DNA of 41,098 nt from a virus. Each line of letters starts with the position of its first letter. The first letter of the stretch is position 1. Of the stretch, positions 2,034-37,898 are shown piece by piece. Under the pieces are notes generated by a model, which was not told the origin of the DNA, searched no databases, and saw only the letters and a program-made list of their open reading frames with translations. Position numbers and translations under genes: made by a program. The stretch lies in the IMG/VR virus record IMGVR_UViG_3300035190_000306, positions 1-41,098 of that record; one strand, written 5' to 3'.

Positions 2034-4256
2034 TTACTGAGATAGTAACTTCATAGTATTAGCTAAGTAATTAGGATCTGCAACAACTTTAGGAATCATC
2101 TTACCATTCTTACCTCTAACATATTTAATCTTAGTTCCAGCAGGTAACATATTATTAGCAGCTATATTATAATAATTCTGCATTTGTTCATCTTTACCAT
2201 ATTGCTGAACAGCTCCTATTTGATTATCTATAATACCAGCAGTTTGATTAATCCTATTAGCTTCAGCTTGATCTAATATAAGATTGTTAGCTGTAGTATT
2301 AGCATTGTTTCTAATATTTTCTTCGTTGTTAATAACTATATTAGAATTATCATATTGCTGTTTAATATCAGCTATAGCAGAACCTGTATTGGCTCCTAAT
2401 GTAGAAGCTAATATATTAGCATTAGCAACAGCTTGTCCAGAAGATGTAGCATTATCTCTAATGCCTCTAAATCCAGCAGCTAAAGCATTATTAGAGTTTT
2501 GTTGAGCTATGTCAATAGCAGGTTGAGCATTAAGATTATCTAAGTTAAGATTAGGAGTTAACCTACCTTTATTAGAATTTAATAGCATAGCTTCTTTAGC
2601 TATATTACCTGCTATATTAGTACCTAGTGGTAGTAGAGAGTTATTAAATTCATAAGGCATTGGGCCTGTACTCTCATCTATAAAATAAGGATTAGCCTTA
2701 GCCATTTGAGGCACTTCTTGTTCAGCTCCAAAAGGAATTTGTTCTATATTTAATCCTTTTAGTTTAGGGTAACCTGTAGCAAAAGTACCATCTTCCATTA
2801 CAGGGCCTATAGGAGTATCTCCACCAAAAACATATTTCATTACTCTACCACCCATTCTAGCTTGTTGTTTACCTAAAACAAACCTCTCATATTCTTCTTT
2901 AGCAGCAGGTAATCCTATTTCAGAGGCTCTTTGATTAAATATAGAAGGTATTCCCATAGGATCTTGTTCCATTTGGTTAGAATCAAAAATCATATTATTT
3001 TCTTGATTTACAGGAATCTTACCAGAATCTTCAGCAATATATGGATTCCCTCCAATTTTACCACCAAACTTCATAGCTTTCTTCATATACTTATCAGTCA
3101 TAACTTGCTTAAATGCTTCTTGAGTATCTCTTAAAGCTAGAAGTTCTTTATCTTTAGCTTCTAAAGATAGTGGATCATTAGGTCTAAGTTTAAACTTATT
3201 ATGAATAGATTTAGATTTACTTGCAAATGTAGATTTACTTTTAGGCATTTTTAATACATCAGAAAATATATAATCATCTATTTTAGTTTCACCACCTTCA
3301 GCTTCAGCATTAGGTGTAATAGCCATACCACCCATTTCATGAGAAGGGCCTCCTATCATTTCTAATTGCCCACCTTTTCTAAATTTTAATGCACTTTGTT
3401 CAGCGTTAATAACTTCTCCTGCAGCTTTACCTGCAGCTCCAATACCTGTACCTAATCCTGGAACTACCATATTTAAAGCAGATACTCCTACTTTACTAGA
3501 AATATCTCCAGCCATATTAGCTACTTTAGAACCTACTTGTCCTAGTTTAGTACTGTATTCTGGATTAAATATTTCAGCTCCTGTTAAACCTTCTAAAGGA
3601 GCAGTAAGTCCATCTAACAATAAATTCCCCATATCTCTTCCAAAAGATTGAGGATTATTACCTTGCATAAGTAAATTCTGGTTAGTCTGAGCTATTTGAG
3701 ATTCTCTACCACCTAAAGCATATTTTTTCTTTAATCTTCCGCCCATTGAATATTCAGCTTTAATCTTAGCTTCTTGTTCTAACATTTCTTTTGTAGGTTT
3801 TTTACCTGAGCCTTTACTAGCCCTGATATTATTCCAAAGAGAATTTTTTACTCCAAGTTTATTTAGTTTTCCACCCATTGCATAATTATTTTGCATTATT
3901 CCAATATTATCTATAGTATCATAAAATTTACTATAACTAGCTGGATCTTTCATTGTTTTAAATCTTTCTCCAGTATTATTAAATCTTTCTAAAGCCCTAT
4001 TTCCTAAATACTGTCCACCTACAATAGTAGGTATTTGTATTTCATCTGGAGTTCCTGTATCATAACTAACTTTATATTCTGAAGCATTAACTTCAGGTAA
4101 TAATTTAGGTCTATTAGGATCAGGTAAAATATAACCATTAGCCATAGGTTGATTATATTCTGGCACTAAATAAGGATTTTGTTCTTTAAGAGGTAAATCT
4201 AAAGGCATTTTATTAGTTGGGCCTCCAGTTTTATACTTCTTTTTTAATCTCTTCAT
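2034..4256 (-). CDS. Putative internal virion (cargo) protein with repeated GG motifs
   Basis: This 740-residue protein has a basic start (MKRLKKKYKTGG) and the same kind of basic/aromatic stretch ending in Gly-Gly recurs: near residues 11, 128, 172, 182, 295, 302, 309, 321, 398, 402, 469 and 478, in contexts such as YAMGGK, YSMGGR, KYALGG and ARMGGR. Around residues 302-335 lies the string SHEMGG followed by EAEGGE and YIFSD, which I recall from structural proteins of other Bacteroidetes phages. Residues 250-282 form a Gly/Ala-rich amphipathic stretch that could contact membrane during ejection. The C-terminal third is Asn/Gln/Ala-rich and looks helical. The gene is coupled to the muzzle-type gene by a TAATG overlap. 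By position it is likely a cargo/ejection protein; an internal scaffold is the alternative. Function is inferred. Confidence 0.85.
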   Translation of the reverse strand: MKRLKKKYKTGGPTNKMPLDLPLKEQNPYLVPEYNQPMANGYILPDPNRPKLLPEVNASEYKVSYDTGTPDEIQIPTIVGGQYLGNRALERFNNTGERFKTMKDPASYSKFYDTIDNIGIMQNNYAMGGKLNKLGVKNSLWNNIRASKGSGKKPTKEMLEQEAKIKAEYSMGGRLKKKYALGGRESQIAQTNQNLLMQGNNPQSFGRDMGNLLLDGLTAPLEGLTGAEIFNPEYSTKLGQVGSKVANMAGDISSKVGVSALNMVVPGLGTGIGAAGKAAGEVINAEQSALKFRKGGQLEMIGGPSHEMGGMAITPNAEAEGGETKIDDYIFSDVLKMPKSKSTFASKSKSIHNKFKLRPNDPLSLEAKDKELLALRDTQEAFKQVMTDKYMKKAMKFGGKIGGNPYIAEDSGKIPVNQENNMIFDSNQMEQDPMGIPSIFNQRASEIGLPAAKEEYERFVLGKQQARMGGRVMKYVFGGDTPIGPVMEDGTFATGYPKLKGLNIEQIPFGAEQEVPQMAKANPYFIDESTGPMPYEFNNSLLPLGTNIAGNIAKEAMLLNSNKGRLTPNLNLDNLNAQPAIDIAQQNSNNALAAGFRGIRDNATSSGQAVANANILASTLGANTGSAIADIKQQYDNSNIVINNEENIRNNANTTANNLILDQAEANRINQTAGIIDNQIGAVQQYGKDEQMQNYYNIAANNMLPAGTKIKYVRGKNGKMIPKVVADPNYLANTMKLLSQ

Positions 4257-7200
4257 TAGTGAAAGCTATTAGTTATATTAGTACCCCAAGAGTTAATAAT
4301 GTATTTATAATTATTAACATTGTCATTACCTGCTTTAATCTTTACATACTTATCTCTTAGATAAGGTTTTATAGGACTAGTTGCTAGATAATCATATACT
4401 TCATTTATTCTAAAAGTCCTTTCAAACTTTTTAATATTTGAGTTTAACGTTAAACCTGTTAAAGAGTTTACAGTAGATTGATAATCATTTTCAAAGATTA
4501 TTGAATCTAAAGGAGATACATCTATAGATTTGTTATTTAAGTCTAATATCTGAGACCAGAAATCTACATAATCTACTCTTGAAGTTTCTTCATTAGCTTC
4601 TCCTGTAGTAGTTACTAAGAACTCAAAGTTCCAAGGATATACCTGATTATAGAAACTACCATATAAACCTACATTATGTAACCATAAAGTATTATTAATA
4701 TCAAATGGATTAGCTGTAATAAACTGTTCATCTGTACCTATATATAATGTAGGTTTAAAAGAATGTTCAGATTCAAAGCAATTTAATAATTTATTATAAG
4801 ATATAGTATGTGCAAAATAAGCTTTAGCTCTAAAATTAGGTATAGTACCTATTACATTCTTTAATTGAACATAAGCTTTTTGATTATCTAAATCTATAGT
4901 TATAACTCCTGTAGTATTATCTGGGAACTCATTACCTAAAGGTACTATCGAGATTTCATCTCCTGTTACAAATAAATCCTGTAATACACTAAATATAGGA
5001 GTTGTAATTTCAAATGTTTGATTAAAAGGAGCAAAAGGTATACAAGCTATATTTATTTCATTAGAGAAAGTAAAATAAGCTTTGTTATACTTAGTATCAT
5101 AACCACCATGAACTCCTACTCTAAGTAGAGGTTTATCTGTATTAGTAATTACACCTCTTGATATTCCTCTAAAGTACCCTGATAATCCTTCTATATCACT
5201 AAATGGTGTAGGCCCACCTGGGGTATACATAAACATCTTTTGTAATCTATTATCCCAACTAAATATAGTATCAGAACCTACAAGTACACTAAATTGATGT
5301 TGAGTTCCTGTTTTAACAGAACCATTAGTATAATCATAGAAAGATAATATATTTCCTAATCCTACAGTAAAAGCTGTTCCATCTGTTGTAGGAACTGAAG
5401 ATACTTGTTGAGAATTTAAAATAGATATAGCTCTTTCCTGATATACAAATAGATTATCCTTAAAGTTTACAATCCTGTTAATTTGTCCATAAGTACCTTC
5501 TGCTGGAAGATATTGATTAATAGGAAATACTCTCCATTGGTCAACATTCTCTCCATCTAGCTTACTGTTAGAAGCCCAAGTAAAATTAGGTTGTTGTTCT
5601 GAAGGTCTAAAGTTTACAGGTCTTGAAACAAAAGATTTAATATTATTTTGTTGTCCATAAGCATAGTTATACAAGAACTCATCAAATTGAAAACTTGCAA
5701 ACTTTGTAGAATTGAAAGTAGGTAATTGGGATTTATTCCAATAAGTACCATGCCTCATTTCAGTATTAATGGTTGATTCACAAGGAAATACTAAAGATAC
5801 CCCTTTCATATCATCAGTATAAGCATAACCTGGATATAATCCAGAACCTACTCCACCTCTTTCAGGCACATCCCAATCTTCTATCCAAGGAAAGCAATAA
5901 AGCATTGTTGAATAGAAGTTAGTGTAAGTATCTCCACCAAATACTAAAGTTACTTGTTGAGGGCTTTGTACAGTATCAATAGGTTGAAAATGATTACATT
6001 GAATATAAACATTACCATATCTATTAACTCTCCAAGGCCCACCATACTGCCCAAAGTTATATTTACACATAGAACTAACCCTATGTAAGTATTGTAACTG
6101 AGGATAATTAGGTAAAGTACTTTGTACAGATATATTATCTACATCTGTCAATCCAAATATATGTTTAGCTCCACCACCTGCTAATTCTCCATTTTGATTA
6201 TTAGGTCTAATAGCAATGTTATAATAATCCCATTGCATATAAGTATCATAAGAAGCAGGTACTATATCTTCAATATCTACATTCCTATGTTTAGTGATAT
6301 TAATAAGATGGTTAAATGTATAACCCACTTTCATTAATTTAACCCACCAAGCATCTACTCTGGTATTAGCATTAGTAGTTAAATCTCCAAAATCTACCCC
6401 TGTAAGTTCAGGATCAAAATAATTAGTTTCTATAGATTGATAGAAATGTACAGTTTTTAAATGTGTAGCATCAAAGTTATATACATCAAAATCATGTTCA
6501 GGAGATTTAATAGTAAATAACCTTGAACTACTTTGCCCATTAAAATCTACTGTAGAATCAAAATTCTGAGCCATTAACCATGAAGAAGCGCAAGCTCCAT
6601 AGTTAGCTGAAGCATAACTATCAAAAGTTGTACTAAAAGCTCTTGTAGGTAGTTTAAATCCAAGATAATAACAATTGTTAGGATTACCATTAATCTCTAT
6701 GTTATCATCTGTATTAGTACCTAATAATGAAACACCTGGGTTATCAGATTCCTGAAAAGTATTAACATTATTAGCACTACCATTATCAAAATTATATAAA
6801 GCTTGCCCTGTTCTTAGAGGAGATAATTGAATACCTTGTCCTAGCCTAGTTTTATCTTTAGCTTTTCTTTCCATTCTAACAAAGTAAAACCCTGTTACCT
6901 CTGGGGGTAATTGAGTAGTATCTTTGATAGTAAATTCTAAACCTATAATGTTAAGGTTTATAGGGCCTTGTATTGTAGGTGCAGATGATAAATTCCATTG
7001 TCCAGTAGAAGATTCCCAAGGTTCAGGAAATCTAATATCAGCTATCCATTTAGCTTCATATTCTTCTCCTTTATCTGTAACAAACACAATTCCAAATCTA
7101 CATACTTCTCCTCTTGGATAACCACAAAATAATGAAGCTGTATAAATATTCTTATTACCTGATTGAGGATAACCAATAGGATATACTTGTCCTAACACTC

Positions 7201-8995
7201 CCATATAGTTTTGGTTAAGTGTAGGTACTATAGGATCTACTTGAGTAGGTGTAGGGCCTGTAAATGAGGATGCTAATTGCCCTTGTCTATAAAACTTACC
7301 ATCTACTTGTACAGCTCCTAAAAATGGAACTTGTAAAGTATCAGCAGGTTGAGAATGTGTTATAAATTTATATTTAATATTCTCACCTTCTCCACCTAAT
7401 GTTATACCATCAGCTTGCATTTTAAATTGCTGAGTGGTAGTCCAAAGATTATAATCAGGAGTAGCACCTTGAGTTCCATAAACTGTACCTGATTCATCAT
7501 TATAAGGATTTACTAAATCCATTGAATCTGGTGGTACATAAGGAGTTACAGAAACACCATTCTCAGAGTATACTTGAAAGTTGGTATCTATATATTGATA
7601 AGAACCTTCTTTAGAATACACTTCAGAATATATTAAAAATCCTGGGTTTTGGGCTACCCTTTTAAACCTGTAAGCTCTTGAATCCCAATCAGTAAATAAA
7701 TTAGGAGTTGTTGTATTAGCAGGATATAACCTATTCTTTTTATAAGTTATAGATTTAGCAGTTTTAAATTGAACTCTAGGATTTACAAAGTCAGCTACAA
7801 GAACAGGAATCTTTTGTTCAGAACCTGTATAGGTATATTCTACTGTATCAGAATCTATTGCTATTTCTGCTACATCATATATTAAAGGAACATCTTTAGT
7901 AGAGTATTCTACTACAGCTAATACTAAATAATCATATCTGGTATCTACACCATCTATTTTAATAGATACAGCCTTATTGCTATTAAGTCCAGTTTCAGAA
8001 CCTTCAAAATCTACATAAGCAGTTTGAATACCTGATTGTGTTAAATTTATCAGATTACTTTTAGGGCTATAATTTGTAATAGCTCCATCTACAGTTTTTA
8101 GATAATAAGCAAATTCTATAGAGCCTACAGGTATATTACCACCATCAGCTACTTGTTGTATAATAGGAATACTCTGATTAAAAGCTGGTTTAACATCTAA
8201 TAAATCAGGTGGTACTGCAAATAAATCTGGATTATAAACATTAGCTACCCTTAGATAATTATAATTATCTGTAAAGTATTGCCTACCTAAGAATTGATTT
8301 TCCTCTCTACCTATAGTTTCATTATATATAGCATGAGTTAAATAAAAATCTAAGTATTCTTCATATACCATGTGGTGATATAAAGAAAGTTCATAAGTAG
8401 GAGCTATGGTATCTAATATAGTATTATTAACATAATCAAATTCTACAACCCATATTTGACCTACAGTTATTTGACCTGTAACAGGTTCTATATTAGCTTT
8501 ATTTGTAGTATATAATACCAGCTTTTCATTAACCCTACCATAACCTATACAAGATAGGTTAACTTCTGGTTGAATGTATATATCTAAAGTTCCTCCTACA
8601 ATGGTAGGTACAGGATCTATACCACAAGATATAATTAATATATATTGATTATTAGCTTGTATTTTAAATTGCTCCTGAGCAATCTCTGTAGCAAACTCTA
8701 TTTTTAATTGATCTGCTATAAATTTAATTCCACCTGCTGTATTGTAAGTGTAAGTATGCCCATTTAAGGTTATAGTATTAGAACCTTGTTGAGGAATATA
8801 TTTATATACATTCTTAGTATCAGGAAAAGTTAAATAGATTTTATTACCTCTGGTGTTAGTAATAGATAATGTAGAACCCCTTTCATAATTAGTAGTAAGT
8901 TCTATATTTAAACCTTTATATAAAGAGTCATTACCAGCCCTAGTAAAGGCTATATCTCTATTCCAACCTTTTCCAAAGTTATTTGTAACTCTCAT
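4256..8995 (-). CDS. Tail muzzle / stabilization-type protein (crAss-like family)
   Basis: At 1579 residues this is the largest complete protein in the window. It begins MRVTNNFGKGWNRDIAF, followed by a Gly/Asn/Thr-rich beta pattern throughout, with many aromatic residues and no signal peptide. The size, the start, and the position directly after a ring-like gene (5-base gap) and before the internal virion genes match the crAss-like stabilization protein, which forms the muzzle at the end of the short tail. Residues near 1170-1300 (FKDNLFVYQERAISIL and the following FSWDNRLQKMFMY) suggest a beta-propeller-like repeat such as is seen in tail nozzle proteins of podoviruses; this is inference. 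Expected role: closing the tail channel and controlling release of DNA and cargo. The assignment is good by context, moderate by sequence. Confidence 0.85.
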   Translation of the reverse strand: MRVTNNFGKGWNRDIAFTRAGNDSLYKGLNIELTTNYERGSTLSITNTRGNKIYLTFPDTKNVYKYIPQQGSNTITLNGHTYTYNTAGGIKFIADQLKIEFATEIAQEQFKIQANNQYILIISCGIDPVPTIVGGTLDIYIQPEVNLSCIGYGRVNEKLVLYTTNKANIEPVTGQITVGQIWVVEFDYVNNTILDTIAPTYELSLYHHMVYEEYLDFYLTHAIYNETIGREENQFLGRQYFTDNYNYLRVANVYNPDLFAVPPDLLDVKPAFNQSIPIIQQVADGGNIPVGSIEFAYYLKTVDGAITNYSPKSNLINLTQSGIQTAYVDFEGSETGLNSNKAVSIKIDGVDTRYDYLVLAVVEYSTKDVPLIYDVAEIAIDSDTVEYTYTGSEQKIPVLVADFVNPRVQFKTAKSITYKKNRLYPANTTTPNLFTDWDSRAYRFKRVAQNPGFLIYSEVYSKEGSYQYIDTNFQVYSENGVSVTPYVPPDSMDLVNPYNDESGTVYGTQGATPDYNLWTTTQQFKMQADGITLGGEGENIKYKFITHSQPADTLQVPFLGAVQVDGKFYRQGQLASSFTGPTPTQVDPIVPTLNQNYMGVLGQVYPIGYPQSGNKNIYTASLFCGYPRGEVCRFGIVFVTDKGEEYEAKWIADIRFPEPWESSTGQWNLSSAPTIQGPINLNIIGLEFTIKDTTQLPPEVTGFYFVRMERKAKDKTRLGQGIQLSPLRTGQALYNFDNGSANNVNTFQESDNPGVSLLGTNTDDNIEINGNPNNCYYLGFKLPTRAFSTTFDSYASANYGACASSWLMAQNFDSTVDFNGQSSSRLFTIKSPEHDFDVYNFDATHLKTVHFYQSIETNYFDPELTGVDFGDLTTNANTRVDAWWVKLMKVGYTFNHLINITKHRNVDIEDIVPASYDTYMQWDYYNIAIRPNNQNGELAGGGAKHIFGLTDVDNISVQSTLPNYPQLQYLHRVSSMCKYNFGQYGGPWRVNRYGNVYIQCNHFQPIDTVQSPQQVTLVFGGDTYTNFYSTMLYCFPWIEDWDVPERGGVGSGLYPGYAYTDDMKGVSLVFPCESTINTEMRHGTYWNKSQLPTFNSTKFASFQFDEFLYNYAYGQQNNIKSFVSRPVNFRPSEQQPNFTWASNSKLDGENVDQWRVFPINQYLPAEGTYGQINRIVNFKDNLFVYQERAISILNSQQVSSVPTTDGTAFTVGLGNILSFYDYTNGSVKTGTQHQFSVLVGSDTIFSWDNRLQKMFMYTPGGPTPFSDIEGLSGYFRGISRGVITNTDKPLLRVGVHGGYDTKYNKAYFTFSNEINIACIPFAPFNQTFEITTPIFSVLQDLFVTGDEISIVPLGNEFPDNTTGVITIDLDNQKAYVQLKNVIGTIPNFRAKAYFAHTISYNKLLNCFESEHSFKPTLYIGTDEQFITANPFDINNTLWLHNVGLYGSFYNQVYPWNFEFLVTTTGEANEETSRVDYVDFWSQILDLNNKSIDVSPLDSIIFENDYQSTVNSLTGLTLNSNIKKFERTFRINEVYDYLATSPIKPYLRDKYVKIKAGNDNVNNYKYIINSWGTNITNSFH

Positions 8996-9000
8996 TTAAA

Positions 9001-9993
9001 CTAATTAAAATTACTAAGTTGTTGTATACTAGGTTGTTGGTACATTTTTGGAGTAGTACCTAGATAAGCAAAGAAGGTATGTTGATCCATTGGGGATTTA
9101 AAAGACCTAATCCTTGCATTTTTATAAGATTCAAAATAATCTTTATTATCTAATTGAGTTTTACCAATAGCTTTTTTAAAGGCTACATCTCTTGTATTAG
9201 CTACTAAAGCAAATTTATTCTCATTAACTTTATCTGTCCAGTAAAGCTTAAAAGCTATTTTAGTAGCTATAGAAGCTATTACAAACTGTAATACATGATG
9301 ATCATCAGGAATCATTGGATAACCTTGATCATCAGTAGGTATAGCCCTGTAAGCCATTACTAACCTACCTTCCCTAAAGTTTGTAACTATCTGATTATTA
9401 TTAACTTCATAAGTTAATTCTCCTCTACATTTTGCATCAAGGTTAGTACAATGTATAGCACTTGGCCTGTGGTTTAATCCTGTAGCCTGATACATAGTAG
9501 AAGTAGTATACCTCATTGGAATTAGATAATGAAATTTATCTTCTCCATGACATTTATATTGATGGCAATTACTAGAATCTGTAGCACATGAAGGCCAGTC
9601 TAATAAAGTCATACAAGGCCCACATTGAGGCCCTGTAGCTGTTGTACAAGCTGTATTATTATGATAATCATAATATACTAATCCTCCCATATATAAAGGA
9701 GAGCATTGGGTATTATTCTGTAAACCTTCTTGTAAATAGGCTGTTTGAACTATACCTAGTAAATCACAAGGCAAATCTCCTCTATGGTCTTTGATAATAA
9801 TAGGATCTTTATGTCCTAAAGTTTGATTTCCATCAGTTACTTTATCTACATAATACCTATTAATACCTAAATCTCTTAGAGCATCATCTAACCATTCTAT
9901 AGCTTCAGCATTTTGAAAACTATAATTAAATGGATAATCAGTATATAATCTCTCAAGAATATACTTATATGATTTTAATTTACCGTTATACAT
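9001..9993 (-). CDS. Tail ring / head-tail connector-like protein, Cys-rich
   Basis: This 330-residue protein sits just upstream of the muzzle-type gene. The N-terminus (LKSYKYILERLYTDYPF, then EAIEWLDDALRDLGI) and the late helical segment (HVLQFVIASIATKIAFKLYW) fit the helical framework of podovirus connector or tail-tube proteins of the P22 gp4 kind and of crAss-like ring proteins. A central insert at about residues 96-150 carries a run of cysteines and histidines (CSPLY, CTTATGPQCGPC, CATDSSNCHQYKCHG), with two more cysteines in CTNLDAKCRG. This is unusual for a virion protein and could bind metal or form cross-links. It starts at a TAATG junction with the upstream 90-residue gene. Ring protein is an inference from context and fold pattern; specific ring number unknown. 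Confidence 0.8.
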   Translation of the reverse strand: MYNGKLKSYKYILERLYTDYPFNYSFQNAEAIEWLDDALRDLGINRYYVDKVTDGNQTLGHKDPIIIKDHRGDLPCDLLGIVQTAYLQEGLQNNTQCSPLYMGGLVYYDYHNNTACTTATGPQCGPCMTLLDWPSCATDSSNCHQYKCHGEDKFHYLIPMRYTTSTMYQATGLNHRPSAIHCTNLDAKCRGELTYEVNNNQIVTNFREGRLVMAYRAIPTDDQGYPMIPDDHHVLQFVIASIATKIAFKLYWTDKVNENKFALVANTRDVAFKKAIGKTQLDNKDYFESYKNARIRSFKSPMDQHTFFAYLGTTPKMYQQPSIQQLSNFN

Positions 9994-10265
9994 TAAACAT
10001 CTAGTTTAGAAAGCATAGCCATTAAATCTTCTTTCTCATTAGCTGCATTACCATCTACATCACATACATAAGATTTAGCAGATTCTAATTTATCTTTCCA
10101 GTTATAGGAAGTACCATCTTCCCTTTTTTCAGGGACTTTAACAGTTTCTATACATATATATGCACCATCATGTAATTCATAAATACATTTACAAACCCTT
10201 TTTTCAGAGTTTTCAAAAGTAACTTCTTTACTTGACTTTACATATTCTTGGTCTATATGGCTCAT
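9993..10265 (-). CDS. Small conserved-looking protein of unknown function
   Basis: A 90-residue acidic protein (MSHIDQEYVKSS) with beta-prone stretches in the middle (KRVCKCIYELHDGAYICIE) and a helical acidic end (NEKEDLMAMLSKLDV). It overlaps the preceding HU/IHF-like gene by 38 bases and joins the following ring-like gene through TAATG. Three cysteines occur close together in the middle third, in line with the Cys-rich virion proteins around it. I do not recognise the family. The context, between ring-like and muzzle-type genes, suggests a small virion or assembly protein. Confidence 0.75.
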   Translation of the reverse strand: MSHIDQEYVKSSKEVTFENSEKRVCKCIYELHDGAYICIETVKVPEKREDGTSYNWKDKLESAKSYVCDVDGNAANEKEDLMAMLSKLDV

Positions 10266-10728
10266 CTTGGATATAATTTACGTTATAATTATTTTTTACT
10301 ATGTGTTGACCTAATTTTCTATTAAACGCCCTACAAGCTCTAAAGTTATAGTAACTCCTATTTTTAAATCTACCTTTATACCAACTTACTTTAAAATCCC
10401 TATCATCAAAGTTTTTCCTGTAAAAAGTTAGTTTACCTAATTCTTTAGTAGCTTTAAAATCTATTTTACTAACATGCTTTAATATTCTTGTTCCTGTATC
10501 TTCATATCTTGTAGGAAATTCTTTTATACAAAAGCTACCTAATCTTTTCTGTTGGAATATAAAACCTGTTTCTATTATATGATCTTGTATTCCCTCAAAG
10601 AAATCTTTTAAAAAACTTTTGTACTGTCTTTTTAATTTAAAAGAAGCTCTTACAGTAATATCAGGATGGTATTGTTTTATGTAATCATTGTAAAATGAAT
10701 CTAAACCAGCATCTTCTTCTGTTCTCAT
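10228..10728 (-). CDS. Possible HU/IHF-like DNA-binding protein
   Basis: This 166-residue, strongly basic protein has a helical segment followed by RLGSF (near residue 62), resembling the helix-then-GxGxF transition of HU/IHF proteins (helix near LKDFFEGIQDHII). The second half is rich in Lys, Arg and aromatic residues, with KIDFKATKELGK, FKVSWYKGRFKNRSYYNF and AFNRKLGQ, a pattern I recall from DNA-binding proteins encoded beside tail genes in crAss-like phages, where IHF-like subunits have been described. It overlaps the upstream ring-like gene by 4 bases (ATGA) and the downstream gene by 38. A role in DNA compaction or packaging would fit. The family call is tentative; a basic tail assembly protein is the alternative. 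Confidence 0.7.
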   Translation of the reverse strand: MRTEEDAGLDSFYNDYIKQYHPDITVRASFKLKRQYKSFLKDFFEGIQDHIIETGFIFQQKRLGSFCIKEFPTRYEDTGTRILKHVSKIDFKATKELGKLTFYRKNFDDRDFKVSWYKGRFKNRSYYNFRACRAFNRKLGQHIVKNNYNVNYIQDEPYRPRICKVK

Positions 10729-11429
10729 CTAGCATCTAATTCATCATTAGCATTATTAACTCTATCTTGAGGAACTTTTAATTTATCTAATAAGTCAGTA
10801 GTAATATCTTTAAAAGCATAAGTCCATAATCTTTCTTCTAATTGAAATGGGCTTAATGGTGTCCAACAAGGTTTATTAGCGCAATTTGTAAAATTACCTA
10901 CATCTCTAGGGTCTCTAAATATACCTCTAACATTAATTTTATCTATTAAAGACAATGTAGGAAACTCTTTGCTTATCAAATAGATTCTATTTTTATAATA
11001 AAAAGCTGCAATTCTGTTAGCATTATATCTTAAATTACCATAACCATCAGCTCTTTCAAAATCTATAATATCAAATAGATTAGTAGGGGTGTTTTGATAA
11101 ACACTTACAGGCCAAGCTTTTACAAATAATTCTCCATCAGATAAAGACCTAAATCCAGGAACTTCTAATTTAGTCCTCATTATAGTACAACCTGTTTGAA
11201 ACTCACAACATTCAGCTTGGTCAGCTTGTTCTATTTCAAGGCATTCTATAGTTTGATAATACAGCTCTGGTATATCTTTAGAGAACTTTTCGTAAGTATT
11301 ACAGAACCATTTATTAGTCCAAATGATAATTTGATCTTCTAAATACCTGTATGAAAATACAGAATCATCAGAATACTGACTAATAAATTCTATTAATTGA
11401 GATCTATATTGAGCTAAAGTTGCAACCAT
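10725..11429 (-). CDS. Tail ring / connector-like structural protein
   Basis: A 234-residue protein beginning MVATLAQYRSQLIEFI. Its layout resembles the 330-residue ring-like protein downstream: helical N-terminus, a Cys-containing insert (CLEIEQADQAECCEFQTGC at about 63-81), a central beta region (RIAAFYYKNRIYLIS), then a late helical stretch (FQLEERLWTYAFKDITTDLL). A second Cys pair occurs in CANKPCW. This arrangement fits ring or adaptor proteins stacked below the portal in crAss-like phages. It overlaps the upstream gene by 16 bases and the downstream one by an ATGA. Virion location is inferred from gene order. Confidence 0.8.
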   Translation of the reverse strand: MVATLAQYRSQLIEFISQYSDDSVFSYRYLEDQIIIWTNKWFCNTYEKFSKDIPELYYQTIECLEIEQADQAECCEFQTGCTIMRTKLEVPGFRSLSDGELFVKAWPVSVYQNTPTNLFDIIDFERADGYGNLRYNANRIAAFYYKNRIYLISKEFPTLSLIDKINVRGIFRDPRDVGNFTNCANKPCWTPLSPFQLEERLWTYAFKDITTDLLDKLKVPQDRVNNANDELDAR

Positions 11430-11833
11430 TTTCCTATAGTGTTTATAATACCTGTAATTTCTTCAGGATCTTTAACGGTAATATCTATAATTAAGTTGAT
11501 AGAGTTAGGTTGAAACAAAAGACATTGTGTATTCATATCTACAATTTCAGTAATATTAGTAGCCATTAAATGTTCTTTAGCTGTAAACCTAAAAGGAATA
11601 AACACTTTAACTTCAGATATATCTGAAACTTTTACAGTAATATCTAATATCATTTCAGGGTATTCTTCAAATGAAGACACCCATTCTTTAACACTTTGAT
11701 TAGGAACATTACATAATACCTTATAACCTTTCTTTAGCAAAATAGCTAAGAGGGAACTCTTAGCTGATTCTGATAATTGAAAAGAAGAAATATCTTTATA
11801 CTCATTTAATATTTGACTAGATAAGTATATCAT
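11414..11833 (-). CDS. Unknown protein in the tail gene cluster
   Basis: A 139-residue protein (MIYLSSQILNEYKDISS) with a helical start and a beta-rich second half that contains two similar stretches, LDITVKVSD and LIIDITVKDPEE, suggesting an internal repeat of a small domain. No membrane segment, signal peptide or known motif is visible. It overlaps the spanin-like gene upstream by 4 bases (ATGA) and the ring-like gene downstream by 16, so it is part of the same translational unit. I would guess a tail completion or head-tail joining protein, but nothing in the sequence proves it. Confidence 0.75.
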   Translation of the reverse strand: MIYLSSQILNEYKDISSFQLSESAKSSLLAILLKKGYKVLCNVPNQSVKEWVSSFEEYPEMILDITVKVSDISEVKVFIPFRFTAKEHLMATNITEIVDMNTQCLLFQPNSINLIIDITVKDPEEITGIINTIGKWLQL

Positions 11834-12465
11834 TTTTGAAGTTTAAATGCTTTTTTCACACCAAAGGTAATACTTTTTCCTGAAAAATCATATTGTGCTT
11901 CATACACCATACCTTTTGGAGTAATTATACCTGCATTTATTCCTGCTACAAAAGTATTCTTATTACCACCAATAGCTCCTCCCACAGTTAAAGACAGGGG
12001 TTGTTTATATACAGTTCTTGTTTTGTATATAGTTATAGAGTCTGTCTTAGTTATTACAGGATACTTATAAGTATAATCTAGTTTAAGAGAATCTAAAGTA
12101 CCTGTTACTCTTGCTATTATCTTACCTGTAATAAGAGTATCTTCTACAGGAACAGTGTATCTGTTTACCTGCAAATCCAAACAAGTATCTTTGTACTCTT
12201 TAATTAGGTCAGGGTAAGGTACAGATACATATTTAATAACTCTGTTTGTTACATATACAGTATCTACTGTAGACTTTCTTATTATAGAATCTACTACAGT
12301 CCTATCTAAGTATTGTATCTTAGGTTTATTACAATACTCCAATCTTAGTAGTAAAAATACTATTATTATTGAAAGTACTGCAATTACTTTATTCTTTACG
12401 CTCCAAGTCTTTAGGTTGTTCCACAACTTCTCCAAACGTGATATTACCTTGGTTTTCAAGCTCAT
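11830..12465 (-). CDS. Membrane-anchored periplasmic protein, spanin-like
   Basis: This 211-residue protein has a short basic N-terminus (about 26 residues), one clear transmembrane helix (KVIAVLSIIIVFLLLRLEY, about 26-44), and then a long extracytoplasmic domain rich in Thr, Val, Asp and Tyr with alternating beta patterns (VDTVYVTNRVIKYVSV, TDSITIYKTRTVYK). The end is Gly-rich and beta-like (LTVGGAIGGNKNTFVAGINAG). Proteins with this anchor-plus-stalk plan are common in Bacteroidetes phages and are often considered spanin-like (DUF6808-type); I recall this and cannot confirm it. A spanin would link inner and outer membranes in the last step of lysis. The start overlaps the preceding 63-residue gene by 77 bases; no later ATG would keep the membrane helix intact, so this start is preferred. 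Confidence 0.75.
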   Translation of the reverse strand: MSLKTKVISRLEKLWNNLKTWSVKNKVIAVLSIIIVFLLLRLEYCNKPKIQYLDRTVVDSIIRKSTVDTVYVTNRVIKYVSVPYPDLIKEYKDTCLDLQVNRYTVPVEDTLITGKIIARVTGTLDSLKLDYTYKYPVITKTDSITIYKTRTVYKQPLSLTVGGAIGGNKNTFVAGINAGIITPKGMVYEAQYDFSGKSITFGVKKAFKLQK

Positions 12466-16239: not shown

Positions 16240-16856
16240 TATTTTATAAATCTAGCTACAGTATATACTTGATTTTTTAATCTTCTTTTTCTTGCTACTT
16301 TATTACCTTCTCTTGTTGCTTGCCCGTAATTATCATCAGAAGTATTACCTTCTTGTGTAATTACAGTATTGCCTTTATCTTCATAAATAAAACCTACATG
16401 TGCAGGTCTTTTCAAGTTTGCAAAGTATATACTAAATACATCTCCCATAGTAAAAGGAACCAAAGGCTTTCCTTTTTTCCATATTACAAACTTATTACTA
16501 GCCCAAGAAGGTGACCAACCTGATACTATGTAATCTACTTTATAACCTCTTTTAGCTAAGTACTGTAGATTATAAGAAGTATAAGCAGCACACCAAGCAT
16601 CTCCTTTTACTCTGTTTACAGAACGAAGAAAAGCCTCAACTTGAGGCCCATCATTTTTTCCAGTTAATTCCCTGATGTTTAATTGAGTAGTAAATAAACT
16701 ATCTAATACTTCATAAACATCTTTTTTAACAACTATAGGTTCTACTTTAGGTACTACAACTTTATTAGAATCTAAGTTAAAAGAGCTAAGGTTATTAGCA
16801 AGAACATTAGAATGTATTTGGAGACCACAAAGAAGGATAATAAGGTAATTTGCCAT
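16239..16856 (-). CDS. Endolysin, CHAP/NlpC-P60-type cysteine peptidase with signal peptide
   Basis: A 205-residue secreted lysin. Residues 1-20 (MANYLIILLCGLQIHSNVLA) look like a signal peptide ending at an Ala-Asn site. The catalytic domain shows GDAWCAAYTSY (Cys89), then MGDVFSIYFANLKRPAHVGFI (His153) and TQEGNTS (Glu169/Asn171), the Cys-His-polar triad order of CHAP and P60-type endopeptidases. The predicted reaction is cleavage of peptide cross-links in host peptidoglycan. A signal sequence suggests Sec export, with holins then needed only for timing or membrane collapse. The start lies 85 bases inside the upstream membrane-protein gene; the clear signal peptide favours it over any internal start. 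It ends with a TAATG junction to the long fibre gene. Confidence 0.88.
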   Translation of the reverse strand: MANYLIILLCGLQIHSNVLANNLSSFNLDSNKVVVPKVEPIVVKKDVYEVLDSLFTTQLNIRELTGKNDGPQVEAFLRSVNRVKGDAWCAAYTSYNLQYLAKRGYKVDYIVSGWSPSWASNKFVIWKKGKPLVPFTMGDVFSIYFANLKRPAHVGFIYEDKGNTVITQEGNTSDDNYGQATREGNKVARKRRLKNQVYTVARFIK

Positions 16857-17161
16857 ACAGGTAATTTAGTATAATCTAATTCTAAAAATGTTTTATATAA
16901 ATTAGGGTGGTTTAATTTAAAACCAATATACGCTAAACAGTTTAATGTTAATCCTATAATTGCTACAAGTACTACTGTTTGTACTACTCCCCAATCCCAA
17001 CTAGCTGCTGTTGGATCTACCATATACAATAAATGAGGGCTGTAATAAAAACTTACTAAAACTAAAGGTAATCCAAATATTTCAGGAAACTGTCTTACAA
17101 TTTCTTTAACTTTCATTACTTGTTCTACTAACCACCAACTAGCTTTTTCTTTTCTGCTCAT
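16772..17161 (-). CDS. Multi-pass membrane protein, holin candidate
   Basis: A 129-residue protein read from the ATG at 17161 (MSRKEKASWWLVEQVMK). An in-frame ATG 36 bases earlier would add a basic, uninspiring extension lying inside the previous gene, so the later start is preferred. Three hydrophobic segments are visible: about 28-45 (FGLPLVLVSFYYSPHLLY), 57-82 (VVQTVVLVAIIGLTLNCLAYIGF) and 105-128 (ITLLSFFVVSKYILMFLLITL). Charged residues lie at the N-terminus and in the loop before the last helix. The size, three helices and the position directly before the endolysin support a class I holin-like role, though no holin family signature is recognised. Confidence 0.75.
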   Translation of the reverse strand: MSRKEKASWWLVEQVMKVKEIVRQFPEIFGLPLVLVSFYYSPHLLYMVDPTAASWDWGVVQTVVLVAIIGLTLNCLAYIGFKLNHPNLYKTFLELDYTKLPVWQITLLSFFVVSKYILMFLLITLALLT

Positions 17162-17405
17162 TTTTGTATTTTTTAATATAAGCTTTAAACTCATCAATAG
17201 CCCATTTACCTATTCCACCGAATATTCCACCAACAATAGCATATAGAGCGACAAGCAGCACTTTCTGTAAAATTGTTTCTAGGTTAATTTCTTGTTCTTG
17301 GGTAACAACATGTTTAACTCCTGCACCTATTCCTACTGTAGCACCACAGAGTCTTTCAAAGTTTTCGTGGATATATATACCTATTTGGTCAACTATATGT
17401 TTCAT
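17139..17405 (-). CDS. Small single-helix membrane protein, holin-like
   Basis: An 88-residue protein (MKHIVDQIGIYIHENFERL) with a Gly-rich hydrophobic segment (VLLVALYAIVGGIFGGIGKW, about 49-68) and a highly basic tail (AYIKKYKNEQKRKS). A weaker Gly/Ala patch (GATVGIGAGV) lies near residues 21-30. This plan, one membrane helix with a charged C-terminus, is typical of small holins and of phage protein families from Bacteroidetes placed just before the lysin. It overlaps the next membrane-protein gene by 23 bases. Together the two may act as holin and antiholin; the order of action cannot be read from the sequence. Confidence 0.75.
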   Translation of the reverse strand: MKHIVDQIGIYIHENFERLCGATVGIGAGVKHVVTQEQEINLETILQKVLLVALYAIVGGIFGGIGKWAIDEFKAYIKKYKNEQKRKS

Positions 17406-17423
17406 TACATCAATTATTTTTGG

Positions 17424-18482
17424 TTAGATTGCTGTTACTGTTAGTGTACCTCCATCAGCTGCTGTAATTCTGTATTTAGTACCATCTTGGCTATATAATA
17501 TTAAACCATTATTTTTATTTGTTACTTCAATATCTCCATCATCTACTGTTAATAATGAACTAGGTGTAGAAGTACCTATGCCTACGTTGCCGTTGCCTGG
17601 AAAATCTTGAAAAGCAATATGGGAGCCACCATTTGTTCTTGCATAAATACCCACATTACCCGACATAGTTAATGTAGCTTGAGTACCATCAGTGTAGTTT
17701 TGAACGTCAAACGTCATTCCTCCATACCCTTGTAGTATCCTAGAATAATCCCCATCAGCGTTTTGAGCTTCTATTGTGTGGAGTAAACTATTATCAATAA
17801 AAGATGCGTACAAATCTCCTGCAATGGTTAGTTTAGAACCAGCACTAGTTGTGCCTATACCTACGTTACCATTTACACCTCCAGTAGCTGTTATTGCATT
17901 GATTGTTGTATTTGCCGTAGAAGCTATACCTATTTCTCCATTTGGATAAACATGAATATCTGATATTCCTGTTCCTGATGCTGATAATAGTATTTCAGCT
18001 AAACTTACTATTGTTTGATTAGAAACACTTGTTCCTACATCTTCTACTACTGTAGTTACATTTCCTGTAGTTACTCCAACACTTGTTACAAGTACATCAG
18101 ATACATATATTTTTTGATTTATAGCATCTGTACTCCATTGAAGAACGCTGTAACTTCCTGATGGATTTAAAACATCAGTTGTACTTAAAGCCCCACCATT
18201 TTCATCAAACCCTAATCTTGCAACATTATTTGTTCTAAAGGTAAGAGGCTCATCATCAGAAGTACCAATAAAGTCAGTAGTATAGTCAGTACTCTTATTG
18301 CCTTTTGTTAGCCAAGAACCAGCACTTGAAGATATTAAACCTAAAGAAGCAGCCTGTTCAAAAAATTCCTGCATTGTAGGTAAACACCCTTGACCTATTC
18401 TAGGGTCATACATACCTATACCAAATTCTGCATTTAATGTAAGAGCTTTACCATAAGGTAAGCCTTGAAATGGATTTGCCAT
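17424..18482 (-). CDS. Tail fibre / virion appendage protein
   Basis: A 352-residue protein that starts MANPFQGLPYGKALTLNAEF. It contains the GNVGIGT-(S/T)-x-SxLT unit at about residues 208-222 and again at about 297-312 (GNVGIGTSTPSSLLTVDDGD), a repeat found in many beta-helical fibres of Bacteroidetes and their phages. Gly, Thr, Ser and Asn dominate; no membrane segment is seen. It lies between the HTH-metallophosphoesterase gene and the lysis genes. A short internal stretch (about 17570-17900) holds more CpG than its surroundings, hinting that this fibre too has been exchanged. It is probably an accessory fibre or side spike. Confidence 0.8.
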   Translation of the reverse strand: MANPFQGLPYGKALTLNAEFGIGMYDPRIGQGCLPTMQEFFEQAASLGLISSSAGSWLTKGNKSTDYTTDFIGTSDDEPLTFRTNNVARLGFDENGGALSTTDVLNPSGSYSVLQWSTDAINQKIYVSDVLVTSVGVTTGNVTTVVEDVGTSVSNQTIVSLAEILLSASGTGISDIHVYPNGEIGIASTANTTINAITATGGVNGNVGIGTTSAGSKLTIAGDLYASFIDNSLLHTIEAQNADGDYSRILQGYGGMTFDVQNYTDGTQATLTMSGNVGIYARTNGGSHIAFQDFPGNGNVGIGTSTPSSLLTVDDGDIEVTNKNNGLILYSQDGTKYRITAADGGTLTVTAI

Positions 18483-18524: not shown

Positions 18525-19709
18525 CTATGAAGGTTGTTCAAAGATAATATCCTCTTTAATAATTCTTGAAGAATATTTATCTACAATTTCATAAGCATAA
18601 CCAGCTCTGTTAGTACCAAAATTTGTCATAATCCATTTAGAAGAACCATACATAGAAAGTATGTTTTTATATCTGAATATTTCAGAGTTCTCTTCATTAG
18701 CCTGATGTAAATCTCCTTTAACTACATGAATATTAGGAGTTTGTATTCTATGTTGATGGATATAGGTATTTATGTATTTTTCAGTTTTCTCATTTAATCT
18801 TAATGGAAAACCAAATTTCATATCTTTATCATCTTTACCATGTGTATAAATAAAAGTATGTTGGCCATATTGAATATAGTCTATAAACTTTTTAATTATA
18901 TTACATTGAATATCAGGATACTTGCAATTAAGGTATATTTCTACTAATCTATTAGCAGCATACCCAAAATTTCCACTATGATTATCATTGGTACAAGCTA
19001 TAAAATTAATTCTAGTAGCTACATTCATGTGTACTATACTATCAAATAACTCTTTATGAGCTTCAAAGTAAGTATCTAATTGTTGGTTATTATTTAGATT
19101 TTGAGGTAAAGCATGTCCACCTCTTGTAGTTTGTGCATTATAACCATCTAAACAATCTCCTAAATCTATAATATACAAAGCATCAAATGTACCATGTAAT
19201 TTATGTTGTTCATGAATAATTTCTAAAACATGGAATAATCTTTCTTTGAATACTTCAGCATTATACTCATTTAAGTATAGGGAATCTGAAGATGTTTTAG
19301 CACCTACATGTTTATCTGAAGTATAGATAAAAAGAGCTTTCCTATTATCTTTCTCTTTAACATCTATTTTAATAGGTTGAATAACATCTTTAAATGATGC
19401 TCTAATAGATTCTAATTGCTCTTCTAATGGTATACTACCACTATCAGGTTTAAAGTCAACAGACCATCTTAAATCACCTCCTGACATACTTTGCCAAGAT
19501 TTAGTTTTAATTACCTGACTTTCTTTAACACCTATTGTTTCTAAATGTTCTTTATAAGAACTTTGAATTTTTAAATCTTGCCTAACTACTTTTAATGCTT
19601 CTGTAACAATCTCTTCTGAACAATTTAATTTTTTGGAAAGTTTAGCTTTTGAGGTTTTTAACATTCCTGTGTACTTGTGAAAGTACTCTATTGCTTGTTT
19701 TAAATCCAT
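18525..19709 (-). CDS. Helix-turn-helix / calcineurin-like metallophosphoesterase fusion
   Basis: A 394-residue protein with two parts. Residues 18-47 (AKLSKKLNCSEEIVTEALK within them) look like a helix-turn-helix. From about residue 125 the metallophosphoesterase motifs follow in order: SDKHVG (131-136, D-x-H), GDCLDG (184-189, GDxxD), NDNHSG (241-246, the GNHD block), THGKD (289-293) and GDLHQ (332-336) where GHxH is usual. The metal ligands are therefore present, with Asp in place of the first His of the last motif. The family hydrolyses phosphodi- or monoesters using two metal ions, often Mn. The HTH suggests nucleic-acid binding. It joins the upstream gene by TAATG and sits among fibre genes. 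The substrate is unknown: DNA processing or destruction of a host nucleotide signal are both possible. Confidence 0.88.
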   Translation of the reverse strand: MDLKQAIEYFHKYTGMLKTSKAKLSKKLNCSEEIVTEALKVVRQDLKIQSSYKEHLETIGVKESQVIKTKSWQSMSGGDLRWSVDFKPDSGSIPLEEQLESIRASFKDVIQPIKIDVKEKDNRKALFIYTSDKHVGAKTSSDSLYLNEYNAEVFKERLFHVLEIIHEQHKLHGTFDALYIIDLGDCLDGYNAQTTRGGHALPQNLNNNQQLDTYFEAHKELFDSIVHMNVATRINFIACTNDNHSGNFGYAANRLVEIYLNCKYPDIQCNIIKKFIDYIQYGQHTFIYTHGKDDKDMKFGFPLRLNEKTEKYINTYIHQHRIQTPNIHVVKGDLHQANEENSEIFRYKNILSMYGSSKWIMTNFGTNRAGYAYEIVDKYSSRIIKEDIIFEQPS

Positions 19710-20287
19710 TAACAGGTTGGTTGAAGTTCATAAACTTGGTTAACTAAATGACAAATTTCTGTAGTTGTCAAACAGTTCCACAAATTTACTAAAATATTTG
19801 GATTATCCTCTAAGTTAGTTAAAGTACCTATAGTAGTAGTTAAAGAGCTTGTAAATGTAGTAGTTTCATTGAAATCTACAGATATTTTATAAGAATAGAT
19901 ATATAGTACTCCACCATTAATATAACCTAAATATACACCAGAAGCATTTAGCTGATCTCTAAGGTTAATTAATATTGCAGAAGCAGTTTCTATACCTGTA
20001 TAGCTAAAAGTATCTGAGCCTATATCTAAATCAATTGTAACACTATTTAAATTACCTCTTGTAATGCTTAAAGAGTATAAATAAGTTAAATCTGTTAAAT
20101 AAGGTTTATAACAACTAAGTATACTTTTAACTTCATTAAATAAGATAAGTTTAGATTGCAAGCATTCACAATTAGAACCTGTAGATACTTTTATATTAAA
20201 TTCTTCTAAAAGATCATTAAGTATCTGACTTATCTTATTATAATGTGTGTTTCTACATTCTAATATCATACTAATAACATATTTCAT
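19709..20287 (-). CDS. Unknown, beta-rich protein next to a fibre gene
   Basis: A 192-residue protein beginning [19 protein letters not shown]. The first third is helical with Cys-containing [14 protein letters not shown], while the rest alternates beta-prone Thr/Ser/Tyr stretches ([33 protein letters not shown]). Seven cysteines, two near the end ([15 protein letters not shown]), again fit the Cys-rich style of this late region. It overlaps the upstream YadA-like fibre gene by 17 bases and is joined to the HTH-phosphoesterase gene by TAATG. No family is recognised. A virion or fibre-assembly role is inferred from position only. Confidence 0.75.
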
Positions 20288-27422: not shown

Positions 27423-28949
27423 CTATAGAGGTTGGTATTTGTACATTAGAACCTTAGTAGGATCTACTACTACACCACCACAATACTTCATTAATTCTAC
27501 TGAGTACTCATCAACTGGAGATGATGTTTGGGTTAAATTAGCCCAAGAATCAAATGGTGAACGCATACCTGAGTTATACCTTACAATAGTTTCAGGCATA
27601 TCTTTAATACGAAGTTTTTTCCAGTTTGGATCTTTAAATCCTGTACCACGCATTAGAGAACTCATATCCCAGTTTCTGATAAGGATATTACGAGAAGAAT
27701 CTAAGCCTAGACCAGAAGCATGTTTTTTCTTCCAGAACTCATCATCATCAAACAAGCCACGATCTTTTATAATCAAATGTAAGCCTGTGTATGATTTGTA
27801 TTCTGAGTAGATAGCTCTGTTCAATCTACCACCTGTTTCACCTGGTTTAATCAAGGTTTCTAAGGTTCTTGCAGGAGCATATTGAGCTGACCTTGCTTCT
27901 AACCAACGTTGGATTTCAATTCTACCTCTAACACCTGTTTCAAGAACTACATATTTAGAATCTTGACCTGATAGACCTCTGTAAGACATTGCAAGTTTTA
28001 ACTCAACAATTTGGTCTATAATACTATCCAAGTTGATAGTAGTATAAGGAGTAGTGTTAGCAGGAGCTATTTGATTGAAGAAACCTGGAATAGATTGGAT
28101 ACTAGCTTGGTTTTTCTCATCAATATGGAAATACTGCTCATTCTGAGTATAGTTAGGCTTAGAATAACACAAAGCCTTATCAATCATTATCTCATATTGA
28201 TAACGGGTTAGGAAATTCCAAAAGGTATCAGGTACAGCAAATTTCTTGCCTTCAAGAGCAAATGGGAATACAATTGGGAAGTCTTTAATATCTTCTTTAA
28301 TCATATTACCTGCCATTGTATACTTCATACGCATTAAGCCTGTTGGAACTTTACATTGCCAGCCAGTATTAATGTGTGCAGTAGAGCCTGTATAAGACCT
28401 TTCTTTAGATTGCCAGTTCCAGTCTTTAGAGAATGGAGTACCTGCAACTAGTTGATCTGAGCCTACACCACCACCGTTGAAAGGATCATTGGTTACAAAC
28501 TGTACTTTATACTTAAAGTAGTTTTGAGAGATTTGTTCTACTGAAGCTACACGGTATTGATATACATCTGGGTTATAACCAGAAATATGATCATTAACAT
28601 CAAAGAATCTCTCACCAAAGAATAGATAGAAATAAGTGTTATTAGCACCTACTACTGCTGGTGTTGCACCTAGAGAATCTTCATAACCCATAAGGGCTAC
28701 TGTCTTGTTATTGTTACCTGCAAGGTTCCAATAGAAGAAATCATTTTCTGAGTCCAAAGCTGGAGCATCAGTCATTTCACTAGTAAATTCACGCCAATCT
28801 TCTTTTGGCAATGAATCAAACATGTTCACATAAATTTGTGAAGCTACATTTGCTTTTTTAAGACCCAACTCACTTAGGTTAGCCAGAGTTAAATTCTGGT
28901 TAAAGGATTTAGGGCCATAGGGGGTTAAATACTGTAAGAACTCTTGCAT
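27423..28949 (-). CDS. Major capsid protein (HK97-fold expected)
   Basis: A 508-residue protein (MQEFLQYLTPYGPKSF) placed after portal and scaffold-like genes, the usual place of the capsid gene in crAss-like phages, whose capsid proteins are about 490-510 residues. It contains segments typical of that group as I recall it: SELGLKKANVASQIYVNMFD near the start, and GLSGQDSKYVVLETGVRGRIEIQ near residues 330-350. Support for abundance is a strong terminator directly behind it and Arg codons of the CGN type (acgc, acga, acgg on the printed strand), rare in other genes here. No delta-domain cleavage site is obvious. The call rests on order, length and expression signs; the fold was not tested. Confidence 0.85.
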   Translation of the reverse strand: MQEFLQYLTPYGPKSFNQNLTLANLSELGLKKANVASQIYVNMFDSLPKEDWREFTSEMTDAPALDSENDFFYWNLAGNNNKTVALMGYEDSLGATPAVVGANNTYFYLFFGERFFDVNDHISGYNPDVYQYRVASVEQISQNYFKYKVQFVTNDPFNGGGVGSDQLVAGTPFSKDWNWQSKERSYTGSTAHINTGWQCKVPTGLMRMKYTMAGNMIKEDIKDFPIVFPFALEGKKFAVPDTFWNFLTRYQYEIMIDKALCYSKPNYTQNEQYFHIDEKNQASIQSIPGFFNQIAPANTTPYTTINLDSIIDQIVELKLAMSYRGLSGQDSKYVVLETGVRGRIEIQRWLEARSAQYAPARTLETLIKPGETGGRLNRAIYSEYKSYTGLHLIIKDRGLFDDDEFWKKKHASGLGLDSSRNILIRNWDMSSLMRGTGFKDPNWKKLRIKDMPETIVRYNSGMRSPFDSWANLTQTSSPVDEYSVELMKYCGGVVVDPTKVLMYKYQPL

Positions 28950-37626: not shown

Positions 37627-37898
37627 TATTTAGTATAATAAATATGAAACACATCTACTAATCTAATACTTACTATAGATTCTGAGTTAGCTAATTTAAC
37701 AGGTGGTACTCCAGTATTAAATTGTACTATCATTCCTATAGAAGGTTCTTCTTCTTTAGAACTAACTTTGATAACTTTACCTAAATTATTTATAGGCTCT
37801 TCAGCACCAAATAATTGAGATTTAGGTTCTTGTTTAATAAGTTCTATTAGTATCCTACCATTTAAAGGATGTGGTATAATATCTTTAATTTCTTCCAT
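37626..37898 (-). CDS. groES: GroES-like co-chaperonin
   Basis: A 90-residue protein read from the ATG at 37898 (MEEIKDIIPHPLNGRILIEL), which forms a TAATG junction with groEL. An earlier in-frame ATG at 37922 lies inside groEL and adds eight residues, so it is less likely. The order PLNGRILIELI, GKVIKVSS, GMIVQFNTGV and VSIRLVDVFHIY matches the Hsp10 barrel (PLxDRVLV, GxVxAVG, GDxVxF, xxExDIxAI). The segment between first and second strands, the mobile loop that docks on GroEL, is about 18 residues, slightly shorter than in E. coli, and QLFG stands where GGIVL is expected. It would cap the chaperonin encoded next to it; whether it also fits host GroEL is open. Confidence 0.8.
   Translation of the reverse strand: MEEIKDIIPHPLNGRILIELIKQEPKSQLFGAEEPINNLGKVIKVSSKEEEPSIGMIVQFNTGVPPVKLANSESIVSIRLVDVFHIYYTK

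Follow-up and report, generated by a model that had tools for sequence, protein, structure and literature searches.

In related phages of the order Crassvirales, comparison of gene order indicates that a fixed place directly upstream of the gene for tail ring protein 2 (ring 2) holds several families of nuclease. One of these families, MPE_A, is a helix-turn-helix (HTH)-metallophosphoesterase (MPE) encoded in the window, by which we mean the whole 41,098-nt stretch of viral DNA analysed here (Table 1). We favour, with modest confidence, the view that MPE_A is a late-region, DNA-targeted nuclease of the Crassvirales, carried in an exchange cassette and probably a 3'-5' exonuclease. Direct support comes from motif conservation, the fold model, synteny, a common N-terminus and the swapping of nuclease types. 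From these we infer the DNA substrate, the 3'-5' direction, the timing and the role of the enzyme.

The window and its metallophosphoesterase

The capsid, ring 1, ring 2, muzzle and cargo 1 proteins of the window match crAss Pfam families, and on these matches the window is classed as a Crassvirales fragment. It also encodes a GroEL-type chaperonin (37898-39469; phrog_5725, E 4e-152). Two of its segments (16239-17405 and 11830-12465) are 95-100% identical to contig L002 while the flanking genes are only 30-60% identical, suggesting recent exchange. No SbcC/Rad50-like ATPase partner was recognised among the genes searched in this fragment of a genome.

Table 1. Features of the window and of the MPE_A protein that it encodes
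Feature	Position	Strand	Remarks
crAss cargo protein 1	2034..4256	minus	PF25725, E 1.5e-10
crAss muzzle protein	4256..8995	minus	PF25731, E 2e-94
crAss ring protein 1	9001..9993	minus	PF24228, E 6e-35
phrog_12177 protein	10228..10728	minus	IHF subunit in phi14:2 annotation
crAss tail ring protein 2	10725..11429	minus	PF25702, E 2e-22; nuclease normally directly upstream (synteny)
139-aa gene	11414..11833	minus	directly upstream of ring 2 in the window at present
Fibre-like gene	17424..18482	minus	downstream of MPE_A
HTH-metallophosphoesterase, type MPE_A	18525..19709	minus	394-aa ORF; phrog_22398-like
Metallophosphoesterase domain (aa 122-394)	18528..19346	minus	Foldseek to PolD DP1, Rv0805, GpdQ, Mre11
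Motif V, KGDLH (aa 331-335)	18705..18719	minus	family form of GHxH; D333, H335 invariant
Motif IV, HGKD (aa 290-293)	18831..18842	minus	invariant (H290; 56 homologues)
Motif III, NDNH (aa 241-244)	18978..18989	minus	N243, H244 invariant (56 homologues)
Family insert TTRGGHxLPQN (aa 194-204)	19098..19130	minus	T194, H199, L201 invariant
Motif II GDxxD, GDCLD (aa 184-188)	19146..19160	minus	D185, D188 invariant (56 homologues)
Motif I DxH, DKH (aa 132-134; D132, H134)	19308..19316	minus	invariant, 56 homologues
Beta-hairpin with invariant Trp72 (aa 66-86)	19452..19514	minus	common to phage 'DNA repair exonuclease' relatives
N-terminal HTH-like domain (aa 1-60)	19530..19709	minus	helices in structure models; HMM also finds phi14:2 g075 N-terminus, E 7e-7
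Gene upstream of MPE_A	19709..20287	minus	adjoins MPE_A in the window only; stop overlaps MPE start (TAATG)
crAss major capsid protein	27423..28949	minus	PF23898, E 4e-36
Portal and large terminase	30237-32579 and 32590-34791	minus	phrog_6547, E 3.8e-87, and phrog_6681, E 5e-76

The motif order of the superfamily (DxH, GDxxD, NH(D/E), H and GHxH) is kept in MPE_A, with Asp in place of the first His of motif V. D132, H134, D185, D188, N243, H244, H290, D333 and H335 are invariant in 56 of 56 aligned homologues, a conservation of putative ligand residues far above chance. Is the unusual motif V a sign of decay? Asp333 and His335 are invariant among the 56 relatives, which rules decay out, and because of this invariance GDxH in place of GHxH appears as a fixed trait of the whole family. 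Asp333 would then, judging by the motif, be a metal ligand. The sequence-only reading had described the metal motif series with GDLH for GHxH, and both the invariant residues and the modelled fold bear it out; the odd last motif is best read as a family-wide Asp ligand and not as loss of metal binding.

An AlphaFold2 model made with 56 sequences has an alpha/beta calcineurin-type MPE fold (pLDDT 92). A structure search against Mre11, phosphodiesterases and nucleases had been proposed; Foldseek gave 98 PDB matches at E<=0.001, the closest being the 3'-5' exonuclease PolD DP1 (E 6e-9), Rv0805, GpdQ and Mre11, followed by further phosphoesterases. Motifs and predicted fold together place the protein in the calcineurin-like metallophosphoesterase superfamily. 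The Pfam Metallophos families (PF00149 and PF12850) matched neither the window protein nor any of 11 aligned family members, and a PDB sequence search found no structure of the MPE fold for the family. The non-MPE matches of the 11-member alignment in the PDB (E 0.2-5.6) were noise, and matches of the window protein to the phrog_999 chaperone and to Pfam ydhR were at chance level.

The window protein matches phrog_22398 (E 3.9e-42) and phrog_284, an 'exonuclease' (E 3.1e-16). The members of phrog_22398 in Cellulophaga phages phi46:3, Nekkels, phi10:1 and phi19:1 belong to the same MPE family, with KGDxH and 30% identity, but they have another N-terminus and gene setting and their phages are not crAss-like. 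The phage 'DNA repair exonuclease' group of phrog_284 and phrog_704 (1984 phage records, including S-CBS2 gp3, the Flavobacterium snork phages and ECBP5) shares with MPE_A the Trp hairpin joined to the MPE domain and a TTxxGTPQ-type insert (hhalign of hairpin and MPE, 98.7%, E 2.8e-16). It differs in its last motif, HxH where MPE_A has DxH in 56 of 56, and in its setting, usually replication modules or the genome start and sometimes near terminase. The small subunit DP1 of archaeal PolD and Mre11-SbcD have the fold and the two-metal motif order of MPE_A, but not its Asp in motif V, and show no significant sequence match to it. Rv0805, a class III cyclic-nucleotide phosphodiesterase, matches in fold, but the GHxH of its class differs from GDxH. 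A limited literature search found no characterised member of the MPE_A family; among crAss genes Yutin et al. 2021 tabulate an 'MPP metallophosphatase' (PMC7886860), to which g075 of phage phi14:2 corresponds and which may also take in MPE_A.

The N-terminal HTH proposed in the sequence-only reading is plausible: four helices are modelled (aa 3-12, 14-18, 21-28 and 32-59), but the structure search did not confirm the fold, Foldseek with this part alone returning mainly HTH proteins and none at a significant level (E >= 0.7). Among 8030 ORFs, the sole clear match of the N-terminal HMM outside the family was to the first ~50 residues of g075 of phi14:2, a Cellulophaga phage of the Steigviridae (Crassvirales). 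The two N-terminal domains align in hhalign at 92.8%; the catalytic domains give no detectable alignment.

The ring-2 slot

Searching viral contigs with a family alignment turned up 404 stretches that encode MPE_A relatives, of which the best 80 were retained; 84,980 prokaryote genomes gave 2. The family is therefore phage-borne. The MPE gene was upstream of ring 2 in 38 fetched loci, often with an overlap, and in five it lay a few genes upstream of terminase. The window protein's three nearest relatives, at 57-59% identity, are encoded directly upstream of ring 2, as is the MPE in most other crAss-like contigs. The window copy lies ~8 kb from ring 2 among fibre genes, its ATG overlapping the preceding stop codon. 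The sequence-only reading was right about this placement for the window, but relatives place the gene elsewhere, and since the three nearest keep it at ring 2 the fibre position appears to be a private relocation of the window genome. Coupling to a fibre gene, also suggested, is not supported. In L002 the counterparts of the genes at 19709 and 17424 are adjacent with no MPE in between, and the fibre genes of L003 are arranged likewise, which rules out a fibre partnership. Outside the crAss-like phages, relatives follow genes for a RecE-like exonuclease and a prim-pol; other DNA-metabolism neighbours are YqaJ and primase, and in ECBP5 the order is exonuclease-EndoVII-MPE-polynucleotide kinase.

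Which genes occupy the place upstream of ring 2 in related phages? Four types were found: MPE_A, MPE_B (as in phi14:2), MPE_D (S-CBS2-type) and a DEDDy/PolB-type 3'-5' exonuclease (DEDD_C). In the cultured crassvirus phi14:2 it is g075, annotated as a calcineurin-like phosphoesterase, that lies directly upstream of ring 2. This protein has the phage order, position, N-terminal domain and superfamily fold in common with MPE_A; it differs in its canonical GNHD and GHLH motifs, in its family (phrog_221) and in belonging to another MPE subfamily. A search with the N-terminal part, the HTH-like domain that the window protein shares with other slot nucleases, gave 33 loci with ring 2 downstream in all 33, and the domain behind it was a DEDDy exonuclease, MPE_B or MPE_D. 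The DEDDy domain has Pfam matches to RNase_H_2 and PolB exonuclease, matches PolB structures in the PDB, and has D, E, D, Y and D invariant. In three contigs (L252:4021-4944, L251:3851-4999 and L248:3774-4934) a NUMOD-like DNA-binding domain of homing endonucleases is fused to the slot phosphoesterase and substitutes for the HTH. For the sequence-only reading, a known-function family always in this place would have counted against it; what was found is a fixed place with several families, none of which was found to have a tested function.

Two scans anchored on ring 2, which share contigs and are not independent, had a slot nuclease upstream in 26 of 29 and in 70 of 75 loci (~1 kb away in three of the latter); many of the contigs surveyed are fragments. 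Ring-2 proteins clustered at 90% identity (n=97, a pool that takes in loci fetched by nuclease) were accompanied by DEDDy in 35 cases, MPE_A in 22, MPE_B in 19, MPE_D in nine and none in 12. In the gut Steigviridae examined (crAss001 and seven others) there was no nuclease at the slot, and so it would be dispensable there. A PDDEXK nuclease of the structural block of crAss phages has already been described (PMC7886860); PDDEXK_a was not seen at the slot in the gut genomes examined, which hold other small genes there and do not include alpha, gamma, delta and zeta genomes.

Other features of these loci were observed. The gap between MPE and ring 2 is a hotspot for homing-type nucleases, with EndoVII-type, HNH-type or GIY-YIG genes in L059, L063, L067, L068 and L072-L078. 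Endonuclease VII (L063, L072-L074 and L078) was ruled out as a functional partner: close relatives have HNH or GIY-YIG in the same gap, so the EndoVII-type genes are probably homing nucleases. In bajarodcaudo virus 1 (L099:2456-6543) the major capsid gene is annotated in several pieces with intron-associated endonucleases between them. Contig L150 carries two MPE_D-ring 2-phrog_12177 sets (2-2094 and 5995-8330), as if nuclease and ring 2 had been duplicated together. A further phosphoesterase-like ORF at L234:2561-3442 has neither HTH nor Pfam match, and a lysozyme-like gene lies between it and ring 2.

Exchange of nuclease types

The ring-2 tree requires at least 20 changes of nuclease type, a number that recombination within ring 2 could inflate; its well-supported branches alone force at least 10-11, for DEDDy and MPE_B. 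The exchange can be seen between close relatives. For example, L189 and L192 have ~90% identical flanking DNA, yet one encodes DEDDy and the other MPE_B, and the breakpoints are at the ends of the gene, the DNA being common up to the gene start and again from the stop codon. L190 and L193 show the same pattern.

A limited literature search found no earlier account of what appears to be a modular, swapping slot. Switching between DNA polymerases A and B in Crassvirales is already in the literature. We are evenly divided as to whether the slot is a parallel to it: a dedicated exchange locus of the Crassvirales, in which a DNA-targeting module is joined to 3'-5' nuclease domains that are functionally equivalent yet non-homologous, namely DEDDy and three types of phosphoesterase, with at least 10 swaps driven by host or inter-phage conflict.

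Function of the slot nuclease

In the explanation that we prefer, the N-terminal DNA-binding-type module would direct the two-metal metallophosphoesterase onto DNA, and the enzyme would act there most likely as a 3'-5' exonuclease and possibly also as an endonuclease, as in Mre11. The target would be phage DNA late in infection, for instance when ends or branches have to be trimmed as genomes recombine, as concatemers are processed or at packaging. In related phages the cassette lies directly upstream of ring 2 and its catalytic domain is repeatedly replaced by other nuclease types; in the window genome it has moved ~8 kb into the fibre cluster. Because MPE and DEDDy interchange on one N-terminal module, what they have in common is probably the ability to degrade nucleic acid as metal-dependent 3'-5' exonucleases; MPE and DEDDy are the same pair of folds that proofread for PolD and PolB. 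DNA is the likely substrate because relatives adjoin recombination genes, and the late gene position suggests either a competitive role or a part in packaging, in the processing of concatemers or in recombination. A nucleic-acid-targeted hydrolase of the late region had been among the original suggestions, and it gains support from the swap with a PolB-type exonuclease on the same module and locus and from relatives beside RecE-type exonuclease and prim-pol.

The rapid turnover of the slot nuclease could equally mark a weapon or a counter-defence gene. The slot could be a hotspot for moron-like antagonistic nucleases, directed at host DNA, plasmids or rival phages in the same cell, or at defence systems, and replaced often as targets and inhibitors change. 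Wholesale replacement does recur between near-identical genomes, and homing-type nucleases also enter the region. In the phi14:2-like group, moreover, 11 of 30 slot genes closely follow a promoter of Bacteroidota type (TTG...TAnnTTTG; for example L190:2535-2590), and 17 of 31 are closely followed by a terminator-like hairpin. However, over 90% of ring 2-anchored loci have a slot nuclease, which is more than one would expect of an accessory gene, the second nuclease-ring 2-phrog_12177 set of L150 does not fit well, and in the MPE_A group the gene overlaps or directly abuts ring 2 and none has such a hairpin. We regard an antagonistic nuclease as rather unlikely, though the most serious competitor. 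MPE and DEDD enzymes can also have RNA substrates, and both folds include RNA enzymes, so the same folds might serve in tRNA or mRNA processing or repair; this is improbable given best matches to PolB exonuclease domains, PolD DP1 and Mre11, and relatives adjoining RecE, prim-pol and recombination genes.

A shade more improbable is a virion enzyme ejected together with the DNA, one of the roles first proposed. The gene does lie beside those for the tail barrel and cargo, and crassviruses carry cargo proteins (PMC10172136). It is disfavoured by the MS/MS-based virion annotations, which could miss rare proteins: for phi14:2 the muzzle and both ring proteins are marked whereas g075 is not, and for phi19:1 the MPE gp013 is absent. 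Least probable of all is counter-defence by hydrolysis of cyclic oligonucleotides. The sequence-only reading had raised such an activity and the phosphodiesterases Rv0805 and GpdQ are among the Foldseek matches, but a DEDDy exonuclease, attached to this N-terminal domain, replaces the enzyme at the slot in other phages, and a DNA-binding-type domain would be superfluous for this purpose.

With the DNA-targeted nuclease that we prefer, one odd phosphoesterase becomes part of a testable system, in which unrelated nuclease folds appear to exchange on a common N-terminal module at a fixed locus of a major phage order. Such non-homologous replacement narrows down the common activity, predicted to be that of a 3'-5' nuclease, more tightly than one family alone could, and the recurrence of swaps between genomes that are otherwise nearly identical suggests selection. 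If the slot is indeed a dedicated exchange locus, the Crassvirales would have a late-acting enzyme of a kind without an assigned role.
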